A DNA stretch of 64,000 bases from Carboxylicivirga sediminis. GTDB taxonomy: Bacteria; Bacteroidota; Bacteroidia; Bacteroidales; Marinilabiliaceae. This document shows, one piece after another, positions 55,338 through 64,000 of the stretch; position 1 is the stretch's first letter; the number at the start of each line of letters is the position of its first letter. The notes below the pieces were generated by a model, which was not told where the DNA came from, searched no databases, and saw nothing but the letters and a program-made list of their open reading frames with translations. Where the stretch lies: assembly GCF_018156225.1 (NCBI RefSeq), contig NZ_JAGTAR010000027.1, positions 1-64,000 on the forward strand. Reading direction: 5' to 3'. The position numbers and the translations under genes were made by a program.

Positions 55338-55525
55338 TTTGATGGCAGTTGGATATGTATATGATAGGCGAGTATTTTTTGATGGCTGTTCATCAACACA
55401 CACGCTCATAGATTATGCTTTGAGATAAAGTAGTTTTTTGTTTGTGAATAGAATATATCACTCAAAAACCTGTGTAAATAATGCTAGCATATTAATTAAC
55501 TATTAAGATTAAAAAAATGTCAACC

Positions 55526-55562
55526 GACCATTTGGTCTAATGTAAAGAATTACATTACTTTG
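55526..55562 (+). promoter_or_regulatory. Promoter and dyads of the nuclease/TonB receptor operon
   Basis: TTTG (55531-55534), exactly 20 bases and TTACTTTG (55555-55562, one mismatch to TAnnTTTG) form a promoter about 140 bases before the first gene. The -33 box is inside the inverted repeat GACCA-TT-TGGTC (55526-55537), and the spacer carries TGTAA-AGAA-TTACA (55541-55554). Two regulator sites on the promoter are therefore likely. The 300-odd bases around it contain nothing else that I can support. Confidence 0.6.
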
Positions 55563-55704
55563 TTACCGACGAAGGGAAAGCTACTTATAAGTGTTTTTGC
55601 TTAGAATAACCTGACCCAAACAGTGGTTTATTCAAGTGCTTGAGCATTTTTTATGTAGATTATGAGATAAAGAATAGTGAACCTACATCTATAATTTAAA
55701 CGCA

Positions 55705-57156
55705 ATGAATAAACCAGTCTATTGGATTTCATGTGCACTCTTTATTCTTAGTTGCTTCGCCTGTGATAAGGACGAGGTAAATAATAAAGAATCAATCAAT
55801 GAAGTCTATTTAAATCTTGACCTTAAAAGTATTAGTGCGTCTGTGTTAGATAATCATCTGATGCAAATCAGCGACGCTGAGGGTGCTGTTGTAAGCGAAT
55901 TTACCGATTTGCAAAACCTGCCTGGTCAAATAGAACTACCAGGTGGCGATTATACTGCTGAAGTGCTCTCGGAAATAACAACTCCCGCATTTGATCAGCC
56001 TTTATATGGCGGTACACAAAACTTCACGGTGACAGATCAAAATACAACATCATTAAGCCTAACACTTACACAATCAAACTTTGGGGTAAAGGTGGTTTAT
56101 GCCGATGATTTTAAAACTGTCAACACTAATTATTCGACAGTCATTAGTAATGAACATGGCTCCTTAAGTTACAGTGATTCAGAAACCCGTTTTGGTTATT
56201 TTGTAGAAGGGCCAATTTCTGTGGTTCTTACCTATACCGATGCTGATGGGATTATCCAAACGGAAGAAAATGTACTGGAAGCAAGTAATCCGTCCATTGC
56301 AGCAGGTACCGCATTGACAATAAAATTTCAGACAAGTGAAGATGCTACCTATACCGGTTATTATGCACAGGCCTCAAATAAAACAGGTCTTGAGTTAAAG
56401 GCTACTTTAGGTGATATCATTTCTGCAGGATATAACGAACGTTCATATGCTGACTTGTGGGAGATCTACAAGGTCTCGGATATAAGAACCGATGGAACTA
56501 TCTGGGATATGTATTCTGATAATCCAACCGGCCCCGAAACATATGTTTACTACCCAGGAGGAGATCAGTGCGGTAACTATTCTGGCGAAGGTGATTGTTA
56601 CAACCGTGAGCACTCGGTGCCTAAAAGCTGGTTTAATGATGCCGCACCAATGTACACCGACATGGTTCACCTGGTGCCTACCGATGGATATGTCAATAGT
56701 AAGCGAAGCAATTATCCTTTTGGAGAAGTAGGCAGTGTTACCTGGACATCGGATAACGGCTGTGTTGTGGGTTCTGCTCGTAACGGTTTGGGATATTCAG
56801 GAACTGTATTTGAACCCATCGATGAGTATAAAGGTGATTTTGCCCGCATCTACTTTTATTTTGTAACGCGTTATGATGATAGAGTGGCCGGATGGAATAG
56901 TGTAATGTTTAGCTCTGATGCTTATGGGTTGGACCAATGGGCTATTACTATGCTTTTGGACTGGAGTGCGAATGATCCGGTGAGTGATAAGGAAAGAGAG
57001 CGAAATGAGCACATTCAGGACTTTCAAAACAACCGTAATCCATATGTCGATCATCCGGAGTTTATAGATAAAATATGGGGACAGTTGAAGTCAAGCCAAA
57101 AACTTAAAAGTGGGGTCGCAGTTCAAGCGGCTGAATTAACCTTATCAGTTAACTAA
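55705..57156 (+). CDS. Surface-type lipoprotein endonuclease I with DUF4493 domain
   Basis: This 483-residue protein has a lipoprotein signal (SCFAC, Cys20) followed by DKDE, a charge pattern like lipoprotein export signals of Bacteroidota. A DUF4493-like domain (about 30-220; TTPAFDQPLYGG) resembles the start of the gene at 61801. The C-terminal part (about 230-455) is an endonuclease I (EndA/NucM, His-Me finger) with NREHSVPKSWF (His303) and DMVHLVPTDGYVNSKRSNYPFG (His322). It should cut DNA or RNA at the cell surface or in the periplasm. Confidence 0.85.
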   Translation: MNKPVYWISCALFILSCFACDKDEVNNKESINEVYLNLDLKSISASVLDNHLMQISDAEGAVVSEFTDLQNLPGQIELPGGDYTAEVLSEITTPAFDQPLYGGTQNFTVTDQNTTSLSLTLTQSNFGVKVVYADDFKTVNTNYSTVISNEHGSLSYSDSETRFGYFVEGPISVVLTYTDADGIIQTEENVLEASNPSIAAGTALTIKFQTSEDATYTGYYAQASNKTGLELKATLGDIISAGYNERSYADLWEIYKVSDIRTDGTIWDMYSDNPTGPETYVYYPGGDQCGNYSGEGDCYNREHSVPKSWFNDAAPMYTDMVHLVPTDGYVNSKRSNYPFGEVGSVTWTSDNGCVVGSARNGLGYSGTVFEPIDEYKGDFARIYFYFVTRYDDRVAGWNSVMFSSDAYGLDQWAITMLLDWSANDPVSDKERERNEHIQDFQNNRNPYVDHPEFIDKIWGQLKSSQKLKSGVAVQAAELTLSVN

Positions 57157-57181
57157 ATCAGAGAAAAAAATCAATCAACTT

Positions 57182-59908
57182 ATGAAGCTACTTTCATTAA
57201 TAGCTCTATGTTGTATCAGCTTTTCGTTAGCAGCGCAAAATGGTGGTTTAAAAGGAGTCATCATTAACGCTGAAACCGGAAATACTGTACAAGGAGCTAC
57301 AATCACTCTACAACAAAGTAATGTTTCATGCACGAGTGATCAGAATGGTGCCTTTGAAATAAAAGGAACAGCTGGTGCAGAAACCTTAATTGTTTCTTCT
57401 TCAACTATACAAACCTTAAACCTTGAAGTTCAGATTCCTTCTTCCAGCATATTTGATCTGGGCAAGATAAAAGTTGAACCAGCTGCTACTTATGTCAATG
57501 CTTTCTTTATTGGCGAAGATGAGATTAATATTGAGGATGATAACGACCAGGTCATTTCTGGCCTTTTGGTCTCATCTGATGATGTATACCTCAGTAATGT
57601 AGGTTTCACATTTAGTCCGATGCGTTTTCGTGTAAGAGGATACGATCAGGAATACACCTCAACATTTATCAATGGGGTTAATTTTAACAGTGCCGAGCGT
57701 GGACGCTTCTTTTACGGAAGTGTTGGTGGCCTGAATGATGTGGTTAAAAACAAAGATGTAGTTAATGGGCTTGAAATGGGTTCATTCAGCTTTGGTAATA
57801 TTGGTGGTGCAACAAACATTAATATGAAGGCACGCAACTATGCACGGGGCGGACGTATTAGTGCCAGTTACACCAATCGGTCATACAATTATAGGGTAAT
57901 CGGCACCTATTCAACCGGATTGATGGATAATGGATGGGCATTTACAGTTTCTGGCTCGCGTCGTTATGCGAAAGAAGGTTACATTGATGGAACATTCTAT
58001 GATGCCTGGTCTTATATGTTGGCTGTTGATAAAGTGCTGAATGACAGGCATAGTATTTCATTCACAACTTTTGGTGCTCCCAGCCAGCGAGGTAGTTCAA
58101 GTGCTTCGTTTCAGGAAGTATATGATATTACCGGCGACAACCTGTACAACCCCAACTGGGGTTATCAGAACGGTAAGAAACGCAATGCACGCGAGACAAA
58201 GTCTTATGAACCAGTAGCTATTTTATCGCATGAGTGGAATATTGGTGAGCAAAGCAAACTGACAACCGGTGTGGCAGCACGTTACAGTATGTATAAGAAA
58301 ACAGCACTAAACTGGTACAAAGCAGAAGATCCTCGTCCTGATTATTATCGTTACCTGCCAAGTTATCAGGAAAATCCTGAAATAGTGGCGATGTACGATA
58401 GCCTTTGGAGAAATGATGTAACGATGCGTCAGATTAACTGGGATAGGATGTATGAAGTCAACAGGTTGAACAACAATGAAAATGATAGGTATGGAACTGA
58501 CAAAGGTGCCAGCTATATGGTTGAAGGCAGAAATAATGATTATATGGAGTTTACCTTCAACTCAACATTTTCAACCGCTATCAATGAACGTTTTAAGCTG
58601 GTTGGTGGCGTTGAGACTCGCCGAACCATTGGGATGCACTACAAAACCGTTGAGGACCTTTTAGGTGGTTCACACTGGTTGGACATTGACCAATTCGCAG
58701 AACGTGATTTTAGTGGTGATTCATACAAATTGCAGAACGACCTGAATAACCCTAATCGTAAAGTGACAGAGGACGATACCTTTGGTTACGATTATGAGAT
58801 GCATGTCACTTCGGCCAATGTCTGGTTTCGCAATGACCATAGCTTCTCAAACTGGGATGTGTATTATGGAGCAAAACTAACCTATACTGGCTTTTACCGC
58901 GAAGGAAATATGCGTAACGGCCGTGCTCCCCTTAATTCATACGGTAAAGGGAAAGAACATCGGTTTGGTGATATTGCCGTTAAAGCTGGTGGTAAATACA
59001 AGCTAAGCGGACGCCATATTCTGGCATTTAATGCAGCTTATGAAACACGAGCTCCGGTGCCTTACAATGCCTACTTGTCTCCCCGCATTAAAGATAATCA
59101 GGTACCAGGTATGGAAAACGGTATTATTCAATCAGGTGATATTGGTTATATCATGAATTTGCCACGATTTAAAGGCCGTGTGACAGGGTATTATACATTG
59201 CTTGATAACCAGATTGAGATTGATAATTATTATCACGACGCCTTTCGCACTTTTATGAATGTGGCCATGACAGGGATTCAAAAAGAATATCGTGGTGTTG
59301 AATTTGGTGCAGAAGCAAAGGTGACGGACCAGATCACATTAACTGCTATAGGTAATGTGGGTGATTATCGTTACACTAATCGTCCTGAAGCAACATTTAG
59401 TTTTGATAACGGAAGCCAACCAGATATCACTGAAACGATTTACTTAAAGAACTTTCATGTGGCAGGTACACCTAGCATTGCGGGAAGTTTAGGTCTGGAT
59501 TATTTCCATCCAAAAATGTGGTTCTTTAACATCAATGGCAACTTCTACGATAAAACCTATCTGGATGTGTCACCAACCAGAAGAACCGAAGCTGCTGTTC
59601 AGTTCCCAACGGATGGCCTGACAGATGAAGAAATTGATGCTAAACTGAGAGAGATTACAGAACAGGAAGAGCTGGGAAGTAAATTCACATTAGACCTTTC
59701 TTTAGGAAAACTTATCTATTTTGAGAATAATAACAGTCTAAGCATTAATGTAATGGTTCAGAATGTGCTGAACAATACTGATATGCGAACAGGTGGTTTT
59801 GAGCAGGGGCGCTTCGATTTTGAAGAGTATAATGTCAATAAATTTCCGCCACGTTATTATTATGCGCAAGGTTTGAACTTCTTTGTAAACCTGGGCTACC
59901 GTTTTTAA
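57182..59908 (+). CDS. TonB-dependent outer-membrane receptor
   Basis: This 908-residue protein has a signal peptide ending LAAQ (about 19), an N-terminal carboxypeptidase-regulatory-like domain (about 23-105; GLKGVIINAETGNTVQGATI), a plug (about 120-235; RFRVRGYDQEYTSTFINGVNFN) and a 22-strand barrel ending in the aromatic FVNLGYRF. No SusD partner is adjacent. Its position between a nuclease and lipoproteins suggests that it imports nucleic-acid fragments or a product of their breakdown. Confidence 0.92.
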   Translation: MKLLSLIALCCISFSLAAQNGGLKGVIINAETGNTVQGATITLQQSNVSCTSDQNGAFEIKGTAGAETLIVSSSTIQTLNLEVQIPSSSIFDLGKIKVEPAATYVNAFFIGEDEINIEDDNDQVISGLLVSSDDVYLSNVGFTFSPMRFRVRGYDQEYTSTFINGVNFNSAERGRFFYGSVGGLNDVVKNKDVVNGLEMGSFSFGNIGGATNINMKARNYARGGRISASYTNRSYNYRVIGTYSTGLMDNGWAFTVSGSRRYAKEGYIDGTFYDAWSYMLAVDKVLNDRHSISFTTFGAPSQRGSSSASFQEVYDITGDNLYNPNWGYQNGKKRNARETKSYEPVAILSHEWNIGEQSKLTTGVAARYSMYKKTALNWYKAEDPRPDYYRYLPSYQENPEIVAMYDSLWRNDVTMRQINWDRMYEVNRLNNNENDRYGTDKGASYMVEGRNNDYMEFTFNSTFSTAINERFKLVGGVETRRTIGMHYKTVEDLLGGSHWLDIDQFAERDFSGDSYKLQNDLNNPNRKVTEDDTFGYDYEMHVTSANVWFRNDHSFSNWDVYYGAKLTYTGFYREGNMRNGRAPLNSYGKGKEHRFGDIAVKAGGKYKLSGRHILAFNAAYETRAPVPYNAYLSPRIKDNQVPGMENGIIQSGDIGYIMNLPRFKGRVTGYYTLLDNQIEIDNYYHDAFRTFMNVAMTGIQKEYRGVEFGAEAKVTDQITLTAIGNVGDYRYTNRPEATFSFDNGSQPDITETIYLKNFHVAGTPSIAGSLGLDYFHPKMWFFNINGNFYDKTYLDVSPTRRTEAAVQFPTDGLTDEEIDAKLREITEQEELGSKFTLDLSLGKLIYFENNNSLSINVMVQNVLNNTDMRTGGFEQGRFDFEEYNVNKFPPRYYYAQGLNFFVNLGYRF

Positions 59909-59942
59909 ATATATCCAAATCAGAACAAGAAAATACAAACAT

Positions 59943-61769
59943 ATGAAACTTAGAAATTATAGCTTATTCGTATTAGCACTGATGCTGGCAGTGTTTACAG
60001 GGTGTGATGAAAGGGATTATGATGTGCCTCCAATTACAGCTCCGGAATATAATGGGCAAGCAACTCATACAATAAAACAATTTAAAGAGCAATTTACAGG
60101 CGACTATCAGGAAATAGACTTTCATGTGGTGATAAGTGGTATTGTAACCGCCAACGATGAGTCGGGTAACCTGTATAAAAAGATGATTATACAGGATGAT
60201 GAACAAGCCATTGAATTATCTATCGACAAAAACAGTATTTATAACACCTTTCGTGTTGGGCAAAAAGTGTTTGTTGAATGTGAAGGTTTATATACTGGTA
60301 AATATGGCGATAAGCAATTGATTGGTTATAAATACCAGAGCAATGGTGAATGGGCCGTTGGCCGTATGCCGGCCGAACTATTTGATTTGCATGTGTTCAG
60401 ACACGACTTTCCTGGCGACAAGCCACTACCTCAGGTGGTGAAGATTGCCGATCTGGACAATTCCATGAAAGATAAATTGGTGACATTTGAGAATGTTAAG
60501 TTCTCAGAAGGTGGGCAGGTTACTTTCGCCGAGCAATCTCAAGGTTCAACATCTCGTGACATTGTTGATGCGGATGGCAAACAAATAATTGCCTATACCA
60601 GTTCCTACGCCAATTTTGCCAACGAAACCTTGCCAGCTGGTTGGGGTAGTTTAACGGGTATCATGTCAAATTTTCGTGGAACCTGGCAGTTGGTTATTCG
60701 TGATACACTGGATATCGGCACTTTTGTGGATGGACCGGATACACCGGTTACCACTGTTGATGAAGATTTTGAAAGTGCTGAAGATTATGATGTGGCAGCT
60801 ATTAATGGTTGGTCGGTTGTTAAGGTGTTGGGCGACCGCAACTGGCAGATAAGAACTTTCTCAGAAAATAATTATGCACAGGCAACAGCGCATAAAGGCA
60901 GTGCTGACGATTATGAATATTGGTTGATTTCACCCCTTATCGATTTTGATAATGCCACTAACAAAACGATGTCCTTTGAAACCGCCAAAGCCAATTGGAA
61001 GAGTACCTCATCATTGGAGGTATATGTGTTAGATAGCAAGGATATTGCCAATGCTAATGTGGAAAAACTAAACGTAACTTTAGCTGGCGAAAGTGATACT
61101 GATAATGCGTTCATTCCTTCAGGCGATGTAGATTTATCAGCCCAAACAGGGCAGAAATACATAGGGTTTAAATATGTAGCCAAGGGTGGAGAAAGCAACT
61201 CAACCACTTTCCGCATCGATAACTTCAAATTTGGTGTAGAGTCAACACCGGTTGAAGACCCTGATCCGGTCACAACCATTAGTGAAGACTTTGAAAGCGG
61301 AACCAATTATGGTTCGGCAGCCATTAACAACTGGACAGTAGCCAAAGTAACAGGCGATCGCGACTGGATAATTCGCGCCTATAACAATAATAATTATGCA
61401 CAAGCCTCAGCACACAATGGTGAATCTGAGGATTACGAATACTGGCTAATTACGCCAGCTATTGATATGGATAATGCCACTAATAAAATCATGTCGTTTG
61501 AATCGGCGCAAGCCTATTGGAAAAGCACGTCTTCATTGGAGGTTTTTGTGATGGATAGTACTGATCCTGCATCGGCCAATGTTGAGAAATTGGATGTAAC
61601 GCTTGCTCAGGAATCCGACACGGAGTTTGCGTATATACCAACTGGCGATGTGGATTTATCGGCCCAAACGGGTATTAAATACATTGGCTTTAAGTACGTG
61701 GCCAAGGGAGGTTCCCAAAACTCTACCACTTTCCAGATTGACAATTTTAAGTTTGGAGTAACCGAATAA
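59943..61769 (+). CDS. DUF5689 lipoprotein with two choice-of-anchor-J modules
   Basis: This 608-residue lipoprotein (Cys21, lipobox FTGC, then DERD) has a DUF5689 OB-fold domain (about 42-260; DFHVVISGIVTANDESGNLYK), which is common in Bacteroidota beside secreted nucleases and resembles nucleic-acid or ligand-binding OB folds. Two tandem modules of about 170 residues (272-440 and 444-608; EDFES---INGW, EYWLISP-IDxDNATNK, YIGFKYVAKGG) follow, of the choice-of-anchor-J/MAM-like fold. Likely surface-exposed and binding. Confidence 0.82.
   Translation: MKLRNYSLFVLALMLAVFTGCDERDYDVPPITAPEYNGQATHTIKQFKEQFTGDYQEIDFHVVISGIVTANDESGNLYKKMIIQDDEQAIELSIDKNSIYNTFRVGQKVFVECEGLYTGKYGDKQLIGYKYQSNGEWAVGRMPAELFDLHVFRHDFPGDKPLPQVVKIADLDNSMKDKLVTFENVKFSEGGQVTFAEQSQGSTSRDIVDADGKQIIAYTSSYANFANETLPAGWGSLTGIMSNFRGTWQLVIRDTLDIGTFVDGPDTPVTTVDEDFESAEDYDVAAINGWSVVKVLGDRNWQIRTFSENNYAQATAHKGSADDYEYWLISPLIDFDNATNKTMSFETAKANWKSTSSLEVYVLDSKDIANANVEKLNVTLAGESDTDNAFIPSGDVDLSAQTGQKYIGFKYVAKGGESNSTTFRIDNFKFGVESTPVEDPDPVTTISEDFESGTNYGSAAINNWTVAKVTGDRDWIIRAYNNNNYAQASAHNGESEDYEYWLITPAIDMDNATNKIMSFESAQAYWKSTSSLEVFVMDSTDPASANVEKLDVTLAQESDTEFAYIPTGDVDLSAQTGIKYIGFKYVAKGGSQNSTTFQIDNFKFGVTE
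60757..61769 (+). repeat. Tandem duplication of the choice-of-anchor-J module
   Basis: Two segments of about 515 bases (from 60757 and 61273) encode very similar modules and agree over long stretches of DNA, for example gataatgccactaa and aaatacat-gg-tt-aa-ta-gt. A third, more diverged copy lies in the next gene (62547-63020). Confidence 0.75.
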
Positions 61770-61800
61770 CTAAAAATACTTTAACTAACAATTAGACCTA

Positions 61801-63522
61801 ATGAAAATGAAAACAAAATTGCTCATGATGGCACTGGGCCTGGCGGTGTTATCGAGCTGTTCAAACATCAAGGAAGATGTATCTGAAACAGGAACACTGG
61901 AAATTAAGTGCGGTTATAATTCTGCGGTCACGCTGAAATCAACAGCAGCTGTTGACCCCAATAGTTTTGTGGCGAAAATTATAAATGGACAGGATGCTGT
62001 AGTGAAGGAATACAATCCCGTATCAAGCGCTCCAGACCAAATTGAGCTGATGGCAGGGTCTTACACTGTTGAAGCCTATTCAGAAGAATTCACTACACCA
62101 GCATTTGATAAACCTGTGTATGGAGGTAGTGTATTGGTAGATGTGGTACCAGGTCAGAACAGAGCAGCCGCCATTAATTGTACGCAAACCAATGCCGGTG
62201 TTAAGTTCTTATGGACAGATGAATTTAAAGCCTCTTTTTCGGAGTATGCAGCAAAGGTAACAATAGCTGATGCATCATTGGATTATCCAAAAACAGAAAC
62301 CAGAACAGGTTATTTTGCACCAGGTGATGTAACAATTGATATTACCATTGGAACTGCGCCAAATGCTGCAACATTCTCAAAGACCATTACACTTAATGCA
62401 CGTGAATTAGTAACAATTAAACCAGTCGCATCGGATGCAGGTTCGGGCACTTTAACTGTAACAATTACTGTTGATACTGATGTGACAGAGCGTGAAGAGG
62501 TATTTGTGATTGGTACTGGTGGGGGAACAACTGCACCAGTAGGTGAGTTGACTGAGGATTGGTCTACTGGTACTGATTTGGGTAGTGCAGCCATAAATGG
62601 TTGGACTGTGGTTAACAGTGATAATGCGGCTGATCGTGCCTGGGTAACCAAAGTTTATAATTCTGAAATATACGCTCAGATGTCCGGCTATCAGGGTTCA
62701 GCAGGTGAATATGAATCATGGTTAATATCACCGGCGATTGATGTAACAGCTGCAACCTATAAAAACTTGAAGTTTGAAACTGCCAAAGCATATTGGGGTG
62801 CTTCAACTACATTGGAGGTGTTTATAATGGATGGAGCAGATCCAAGTACAGCTAATAAGGAGGTATTAACAGCAACTTTGGCTCAAGAATCAGACGCAAA
62901 TCATGCCTGGATACCTTCCGGTACAATTGATCTGTCAAGCTATTCAGGTACACGATATATTGCTTTTAAATATGTGGGTGCGGCTACCACTTTCCGAATG
63001 GATAATTTCCATTTTGGATTTAACCCAAATGATTCGGGTGACACAGGTGGCGATACAGGCGGTTCAACAGGATCAGAAATCTTAGTAGAAGATTTTGCTG
63101 ATGTTACTGGTCCAGCTGATAATCCAACATCTAAGTGGACTGGAAATACAAATTTTCCAATTGTGAATGATAAAGTTTATGCATCTGATGGTATGATTAA
63201 ATTGGGGTCGAGTAGTGATTTAGGTTCAATTGAAAGTAAGACTCTTGATTTATCAGTAAATGGGGGTGCTTTTACAGTTTCATTCAAAGTAAAAGGTTGG
63301 ACGAACGATTATGACAATAAGGTGGTCATTGTTGCTGCTGGTGAGGAAAAAACAATTGATTTTACTAATACTGGCGGGCTAGTTGAAGTTTCTGCAAGTT
63401 TTACAGGCGGTACAGCCAACACTACAATTGTCATTAAAAATGCTTTAAAGACGGATCCTGGATATGAAGGTAAGCCTATGCGTATTTTTGTTGATGATGT
63501 TAAAGTAACAGAGACTAAGTAA
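61801..63522 (+). CDS. DUF4493 / choice-of-anchor-J lipoprotein
   Basis: This 573-residue lipoprotein (Cys20, lipobox LSSC) starts with a DUF4493 domain (about 28-230; TTPAFDKPVYGG) related to that of the nuclease at 55705. A choice-of-anchor-J module (about 248-405) follows, then a Gly/Asp/Thr-rich linker (about 413-428) and a jelly-roll-like C-terminal domain (about 430-573). Two modules are thus shared with neighbours, as if the operon were assembled by shuffling. Function is likely ligand or polymer binding at the surface. Confidence 0.78.
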   Translation: MKMKTKLLMMALGLAVLSSCSNIKEDVSETGTLEIKCGYNSAVTLKSTAAVDPNSFVAKIINGQDAVVKEYNPVSSAPDQIELMAGSYTVEAYSEEFTTPAFDKPVYGGSVLVDVVPGQNRAAAINCTQTNAGVKFLWTDEFKASFSEYAAKVTIADASLDYPKTETRTGYFAPGDVTIDITIGTAPNAATFSKTITLNARELVTIKPVASDAGSGTLTVTITVDTDVTEREEVFVIGTGGGTTAPVGELTEDWSTGTDLGSAAINGWTVVNSDNAADRAWVTKVYNSEIYAQMSGYQGSAGEYESWLISPAIDVTAATYKNLKFETAKAYWGASTTLEVFIMDGADPSTANKEVLTATLAQESDANHAWIPSGTIDLSSYSGTRYIAFKYVGAATTFRMDNFHFGFNPNDSGDTGGDTGGSTGSEILVEDFADVTGPADNPTSKWTGNTNFPIVNDKVYASDGMIKLGSSSDLGSIESKTLDLSVNGGAFTVSFKVKGWTNDYDNKVVIVAAGEEKTIDFTNTGGLVEVSASFTGGTANTTIVIKNALKTDPGYEGKPMRIFVDDVKVTETK

Positions 63523-63540
63523 TAATACTATATTTCAGCT

Positions 63541-63576
63541 GAGGCAGCCTGGTTAGTGAGGTTGCCTCTTCTTTTA
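63541..63576 (+). terminator. Hairpin between the lipoprotein and nuclease genes
   Basis: GAGGCAGCCT pairs with AGGTTGCCTC (one G-T) and a T-rich tail follows. It stands inside the run of co-directional genes, so it may only partly stop transcription. Confidence 0.65.
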
Positions 63577-63592
63577 TAAATGATAACTAATT

Positions 63593-64000
63593 ATGATGTT
63601 CAGGTATCTTCTTTTAATATTTCTGTTAGCTGTATTGGGAACAAATGCCCAAGACAAGAAATATACTGTTTATGGTATGGCGTTTTACAACGTTGAGAAC
63701 TTATTTGATACGGTTAATTCTGATGATACCAATGATGAGGAATTTACACCGGATGGCAGCTATCATTGGAATGAAATGAAGTACGAGAATAAGCTGAAAA
63801 ATATTTCCACTGTCCTCAATCAATTGGGGGGCAAGTATTGCCCGCAGGGGCCGGCTGTTGTGGGTTTGGCTGAGGTGGAGAACCGAAAAGTGCTGGAAGA
63901 CTTGGTGGCCTATGGCAACATTGCTGATAAAAATTACCAGATAGTACATGAGGAGTCACCCGATTACCGAGGTATAGATGTGGCTTTAATATATAATCCT
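63593..64000 (+). CDS. Endonuclease/exonuclease/phosphatase-family protein (partial)
   Basis: The gene runs off the right edge; 136 codons are visible. It starts MMFRYLLLIFLLAVLGTNAQ, a signal peptide, and continues with the EEP signatures AFYNVENLFDTV (metal-binding Asn and the usual N-VENLFD), and VVGLAEVENRKVLEDL with the catalytic Glu. The tail DYRGIDVALIYNP fits the family. Secreted members are nucleases or phosphodiesterases. It lies downstream of a nuclease and a TonB receptor, in keeping with use of external nucleic acid. Confidence 0.88.
   Translation, partial: MMFRYLLLIFLLAVLGTNAQDKKYTVYGMAFYNVENLFDTVNSDDTNDEEFTPDGSYHWNEMKYENKLKNISTVLNQLGGKYCPQGPAVVGLAEVENRKVLEDLVAYGNIADKNYQIVHEESPDYRGIDVALIYNP

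Follow-up and report, generated by a model that had tools for sequence, protein, structure and literature searches.

What does a TonB-dependent-receptor-like outer-membrane protein carry when its operon also encodes three nucleases, and to what use is the cargo put? The question is raised by the end of a 64,000-nucleotide stretch of Carboxylicivirga sediminis DNA (the window, meaning the whole stretch analysed) and by the continuation of its contig. It touches a wider problem: how DNA crosses the outer membrane in Bacteroidota is unsettled, and the Riemerella anatipestifer model, in the parts of PMC8459023 that set it out, names a pair of proteins for the crossing, not a strand-degrading step. 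The locus comprises:

55523-55562, + strand: promoter footprint with TTTG at 55531-55534 and TACTTTG at 55556-55562, kept in three genomes of the genus, the window's included.
55523-55539: palindromic operator-like site ACCGACCATTTGGTCTA, overlapping the TTTG (-33) box of the promoter.
55705-57156, + strand: gene 1, lipoprotein-like, DUF4493 (residues 52-216) and endonuclease I (residues 227-452), from Pfam, PDB matches and motifs.
57182-59908, + strand: gene 2, TonB-dependent-receptor-like outer-membrane protein of family A, 908 aa, from identity, tree and an N-terminal CarbopepD_reg_2 domain.
59943-61769, + strand: gene 3, lipoprotein-like, DUF5689 (60060-60716) and two choice-of-anchor-J-like domains, from Pfam, our own profiles and identity.
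61801-63522, + strand: gene 4, lipoprotein-like, DUF4493 and a choice-of-anchor-J domain, from Pfam and from NCBIfam NF038128 above cut-off.
63541-63568, + strand: terminator- or attenuator-like hairpin that separates gene 4 from gene 5 and carries a T-rich tail, from a pattern scan.
63593-64000 in the window and to 64612 on the contig, + strand: gene 5, secreted EEP nuclease, 339 aa, from PF19580 and motifs.
64617-65756 on the contig, past the window end: gene 6, lipoprotein-like, BACON and Endonuclease_NS, 379 aa, from PF01223 and motifs.

The preliminary description of this DNA had proposed five genes on one strand with short gaps, and had assigned them to the endonuclease I, DUF5689, DUF4493 and EEP families around a TonB-dependent receptor. 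Both proposals hold: genes 1 to 5 follow one another on the + strand as described, separated by 25, 34, 31 and 70 bases, and each of the four families is found by Pfam above its cut-off. Gene 1 is a fusion of DUF4493 (E 2.7e-20) to Endonuclease_1 (E 7.3e-83), so that DUF4493 occurs twice in the operon, in genes 1 and 4 (E 5.9e-35 in the latter); gene 2 carries CarbopepD_reg_2 (E 1.7e-10) and gene 3 DUF5689 (E 1.3e-65). The piece of gene 5 cut off by the window end matches Exo_endo_phos_3 (E 8.6e-43), and the full-length protein on the contig matches PF19580 (E 1.6e-116). Read on the contig, gene 6 begins 4 bases after gene 5, assuming its ATG start, and combines a BACON domain with Endonuclease_NS (PF01223, E 7.7e-40). 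By our reading of the sequences, genes 1, 3, 4 and 6 have lipoprotein-like signal peptides with mostly acidic residues after the Cys, and that of gene 5 is of the ordinary type; the products would accordingly be candidates for export to the cell surface. No viral signal appeared in a viral scan of the contig.

Upstream of gene 1, a conserved block ACCGACCRTTTGGTCTA followed by ATTACTTTG is common to three genomes of the genus, including the window's own, in agreement with a promoter placed earlier near 55526. We take TACTTTG to be the Bacteroidota-type promoter form, one base short of TAnnTTTG; allowing up to 3 mismatches, the motif of the footprint occurs once in the window, against 0.21 occurrences expected by chance, and the palindrome ACCGACCATTTGGTCTA resembles an operator of the TetR/NemR type. 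In the pattern scan taken by itself, promoter-like and terminator-like sites were no commoner than in shuffled sequence. The hairpin at 63541, which had been held to weaken the case for a single transcript, is real: a stem and T-rich tail stand at this position in all five genomes compared (the window's and four of the same genus), and because they are kept in place despite base changes, partial termination before genes 5 and 6 is likely. One promoter thus likely yields a four-gene transcript, with transcription continuing in part into the genes for the EEP and non-specific nucleases.

The active sites of the nucleases had been singled out for checking. All three enzymes (genes 1, 5 and 6) exceed the cut-off of their family (PF04231, PF19580 and PF01223, respectively) and keep its near-invariant motif residues, including REH..P and N..RSN in gene 1; we assume these residues to be the catalytic ones. 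A profile search of the PDB matched gene 1 to endonuclease I structures and gene 6 to NucA/EndoG-type structures, and returned no match for the EEP protein of gene 5.

The identity of genes 2 and 3 is illuminated by R. anatipestifer, in which markerless deletion of either RA0C_RS04915 or RA0C_RS04920 abolishes natural transformation; most other clean mutants in the same table kept transformation, and these two fell below detection (PMC8459023). The former is described there as a predicted outer-membrane protein with a carboxypeptidase-regulatory-like domain and the latter as a DUF5689 protein, and the proposal is that DNA binds RA0C_RS04920 and crosses the outer membrane through RA0C_RS04915. 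The conversion of double- to single-stranded DNA, with degradation of a strand, is left unknown in the model as given in that paper, and its sections bearing on the pair hold no discussion of a nuclease neighbour. A published comEC primer led us to the corresponding part of the public CCUG25054 genome, where the order is comEC, a carboxylase-like gene, a divergent EEP gene, the receptor and DUF5689; by gene order and domains this pair fits RA0C_RS04915/RA0C_RS04920. Gene 2 is 30% identical to the Riemerella receptor over its full length, gene 3 is 28% identical to the Riemerella DUF5689 protein, and the EEP nuclease of gene 5 is 35% identical to its Riemerella counterpart. In the open-access collection searched, preprints excluded, DUF5689 is mentioned in PMC8459023 only and DUF4493 not at all.

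A place for gene 2 among TonB-dependent receptors is suggested by comparison more than by domain search: Pfam gave a weak plug match (E 0.4) and no barrel match, and the protein aligns with a second Riemerella protein bearing both Pfam TonB-receptor domains (23% identity, E 3e-43). In a tree rooted on this second Riemerella receptor, family A gathers 99 sequences, with the receptors of the window and of the Riemerella pair placed among them; nine others, as well as the second receptor itself, are set apart from it by a long branch (support 0.74). Against the PDB, only the N-terminal domain of gene 2 and only the anchor-J part of gene 3 were matched, and alignment-free structure prediction was of low confidence (pLDDT 31 for the DUF5689 region and 29 for the receptor). 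We suspect DUF5689 to be an OB-fold, judging by its sequence pattern and a control match in Bacillus subtilis. Gene 3 scores 235 bits against NF052645, below the cut-off of 475.

How far the pair and its nuclease neighbours are conserved was assessed from the best 60 of 87 DUF5689-matching genomes of the window's order, 20 more from a receptor search, and the window itself. These 81 stretches were annotated with iterated profiles, and 71 hold both genes, ten of them from the window's genus; in those dropped, the search of the stretch gave either no DUF5689 gene (L036, L038-L044) or no receptor (L103, L120). The receptor is directly followed by DUF5689 in tandem in 71/71 loci holding both, with a median gap of 21 bases. 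Of the 71 stretches, 48 contain an EEP gene, divergent in 40 cases and at most 500 bases from the receptor in 41; among the 53 loci with complete flanks, 41 have one within 6 kb, and counting endonuclease I and non-specific nuclease as well raises this to 43/53. Among the matches listed, an order genome usually has just 1-3 EEP genes (four have 4, one has 5, and 12/149 have none), so chance would probably not account for this adjacency. The exact five-family set, with all three nuclease families together, was found in only four loci of the 71, each from the window's genus. The five families had been put forward as a unit that might recur in other genomes; its core of receptor, DUF5689 and EEP nuclease does recur, and the full set was seen in the genus only.

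Across the phylum, a receptor search of 392 genomes returned matches at 1e-30 or better in 143, the weaker of which include a second receptor family, and strong matches (E below 1e-200) in 65, all within the window's class. In the best 29 phylum loci after the window, which are the best-scoring and not a random draw and carry flanks of only 1.5 kb, DUF5689 is next door in 28 and an EEP gene adjacent in 23. The homologs of the receptor, and with them the linkage to nucleases, thus extend across the class, wider than the Flavobacteriaceae to which they are confined in the account given in PMC8459023.

Several loci carry features of their own. The second TonB receptor family is found in L038-L044, and in L038, L039 and L140 its receptors (about 830-870 aa) have no adjoining DUF5689; two genes downstream of this receptor, L038 and L039 each encode a protein of ~600 aa that includes an endonuclease I domain. 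One locus (L085:12492-17999) has a second receptor/DUF5689-like pair across the EEP gene, such that one EEP gene sits between two such pairs. By eye, the two genes past DUF5689 in L088, L105, L110 and L122 resemble polyprenyl-phosphate mannosyltransferase and dihydroorotase, and similar gene lengths downstream of DUF5689 recur in other loci, most simply as inherited gene order. RadA was considered for a conserved downstream gene and rejected, as it gave no match.

We favour reading the locus as a TonB-dependent operon for nucleic-acid capture and uptake, with a probability of roughly 0.6. The endonuclease I and non-specific endonuclease lipoproteins, together with the secreted EEP nuclease, would cut extracellular DNA and possibly RNA; the strands would be bound by the DUF5689 lipoprotein, perhaps aided by the one with DUF4493, and handed to the receptor; and the receptor would bring them into the periplasm with energy supplied through TonB. 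The receptor/DUF5689 pair could also, as in Riemerella, supply ComEC with DNA for transformation. Binding of DNA by DUF5689, its passage through the barrel and the part of TonB are predictions. The reading is favoured because three nuclease families with intact motifs share one operon, the tandem is invariant and EEP genes are linked to it; because the Riemerella deletions abolish transformation in a species whose public genome has a divergent EEP gene next to the pair; and because transformation is reduced in tonB mutants of R. anatipestifer (PMC8383284) and the window's genome has both ComEC and DprA. Against it, 10 of the 53 loci with complete flanks have none of the three nuclease families within 6 kb, and the stronger tonB effect is ascribed by the authors of PMC8383284 to iron. 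DNA on its way to ComEC must also stay long, and three degrading nucleases would work against that. PMC8383284 also reports transformation without phosphate to be lower, not higher. The link to nucleic acids asserted in the preliminary description is borne out by the nucleases of this operon and by those beside the pair across the class; its view of a scavenging locus captured one of two live roles and missed the connection to transformation. From gene content alone, the main use in the window's lineage is probably nutrition (phosphorus, nitrogen and carbon), with transformation as a possible second output.

The presence of ComEC and DprA means that the organism could in principle be transformed, but this lends weak support, because both are near universal and control genomes match too: ComEC was found in 19/20 genomes searched and matched in 140/149 order genomes (139 above cut-off), and DprA was found in 13/13 genomes tested (12 above cut-off). 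Of the nine order genomes without a ComEC match, seven keep a DUF5689 match; assembly gaps are possible, yet a second search with a full ComEC protein found none in the same nine genomes and both of two controls, and one of the DUF5689 keepers lacking a ComEC match (G013) reaches 99% completeness in some 30 contigs. The idea that comEC generally accompanies the pair was rejected, as 0/63 order genomes with strong DUF5689 (E below 1e-29) and ComEC matches have both on one contig, a count made by eye and weakened by fragmented assemblies. One genome (G030) has a weaker DUF5689 match on its comEC contig, ~44 kb away. comEC lies near the pair only in R. anatipestifer and, at 11-17 kb, in four genomes of the window's genus (G001, G002, G005 and G007), and the four may share one ancestral arrangement. 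Among the matches listed, two genomes have a further EEP-family gene ~1.2-1.4 kb from a ComEC domain (G051:C92:43569-46756 and G130:C4:103605-106556).

A secretin was not found in 19 other genomes searched, and its absence had been considered as support for a receptor route; this argument was dropped, since the window's own genome has a secretin gene (L172, G000:C89:143000-155000, E 1.7e-37). By eye, that gene adjoins ATPase-, prepilin peptidase- and pseudopilin-like genes in a cluster resembling type II secretion or type IV pilus systems. A pilus-type DNA route is therefore possible in this organism.

Three other explanations share parts of this evidence. EndA/NucA-type nucleases nick or trim incoming DNA in other competent bacteria, and the pair could likewise be a dedicated gate that imports long DNA for ComEC, with the operon's nucleases as its trimming enzymes. 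The requirement for either Riemerella gene and the nearby comEC in Riemerella and four genomes of the window's genus speak for such a gate, and an EEP neighbour would suit the step missing from the published model (PMC8459023). We nevertheless consider it unlikely: DUF5689 persists in seven of the nine genomes without a ComEC match, comEC and DUF5689 never share a contig in the by-eye count over fragmented assemblies, and Flavobacterium johnsoniae, from a genus for which homologs of both proteins are listed (PMC8459023, Table 4), did not transform under R. columbina conditions (PMC7965970). The concentration of three degrading nucleases in one operon also suits feeding better than it suits keeping DNA intact.

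The same concentration of nucleases, and the retention of DUF5689 in seven genomes without a ComEC match, would suit a locus that scavenges for nutrition only and plays no role in transformation in the window's lineage, as first proposed for this DNA. Bacteroidota are reported to degrade DNA and to secrete nucleases (PMC8289736), and two F. johnsoniae endonuclease I genes are listed as increased in a phosphate-depletion table (PMC8115612). By itself this explanation leaves the transformation requirement of the Riemerella pair unaccounted for, and ComEC and DprA, near universal as they are, stand in the window's genome; we hold it to be a serious contender, somewhat improbable in its exclusive form. 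Far less probable is a system of the surface or envelope that handles something other than nucleic acid, with nucleases for biofilm or defence and an indirect defect in Riemerella. It draws on the Riemerella DUF5689 protein, a member of the M949_1556 family, whose gene is named for antigenicity and pathogenicity in literature cited through a review, and this membership hints at other surface effects that also count against the uptake operon; the loci with no nearby nuclease agree with it. It is opposed by the recurrence of three unrelated nuclease families beside the pair and by the fall of both deletions below detection when most other clean mutants remained transformable.

A broader form of the favoured uptake reading can be put forward tentatively, at a likelihood well short of even: that the family A receptor and DUF5689 constitute a general outer-membrane DNA gate of Bacteroidia, in which a TonB-driven barrel would replace the type IV pilus and secretin, the adjacent nuclease would be the missing strand-processing enzyme, and feeding and transformation would use one door. 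The class-wide linkage of pair and nuclease supplies candidate enzymes for the strand-degrading step, and whether DNA is taken up as food or for sex becomes a testable question in the genomes where DUF5689 is kept and ComEC has no match. On the seafloor, extracellular DNA is described as a major source of phosphorus, nitrogen and carbon, and Bacteroidota are counted among the organisms that degrade it (PMC8289736). The words Riemerella, TonB, Bacteroid- and Flavobacter- do not occur in a 2025 review of natural transformation (PMC12236230).

Among known systems, SusCD polysaccharide utilisation loci resemble this operon in uniting a TonB-receptor-like protein, surface lipoproteins and hydrolases, but the hydrolases of the window are nucleases. 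The absence of SusD noted earlier is upheld by Pfam and NCBIfam searches of genes 1-6, and with no SusC-family or glycoside hydrolase match in the six proteins either, assignment to a SusCD locus was rejected. The phosphate-depletion response of Flavobacterium (PMC8115612) likewise combines TonB-type uptake with nucleases of the endonuclease I family, in that case for organic phosphorus; its two nucleases, unlike those here, are described there as orphan genes, and its transporters as SusCD-like or otherwise TonB-dependent. ExeM/NucH-type extracellular nucleases are, like gene 5, secreted and of EEP fold, but gene 5 matches NF033681 weakly (40 bits, below the cut-off of 300) and belongs to PF19580. 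Closest is the Riemerella pair, with a homologous receptor directly followed by a DUF5689 and choice-of-anchor-J protein and an EEP gene beside them; the window differs in having the EEP gene inside the operon, together with endonuclease I, non-specific endonuclease and two DUF4493 genes, at an identity of only ~30% and with its side of the comparison known from genes alone. The best reading is that the pair is a relative of the one already known in Riemerella transformation, and that an operon with three nucleases, probably for nucleic-acid uptake, builds on it.
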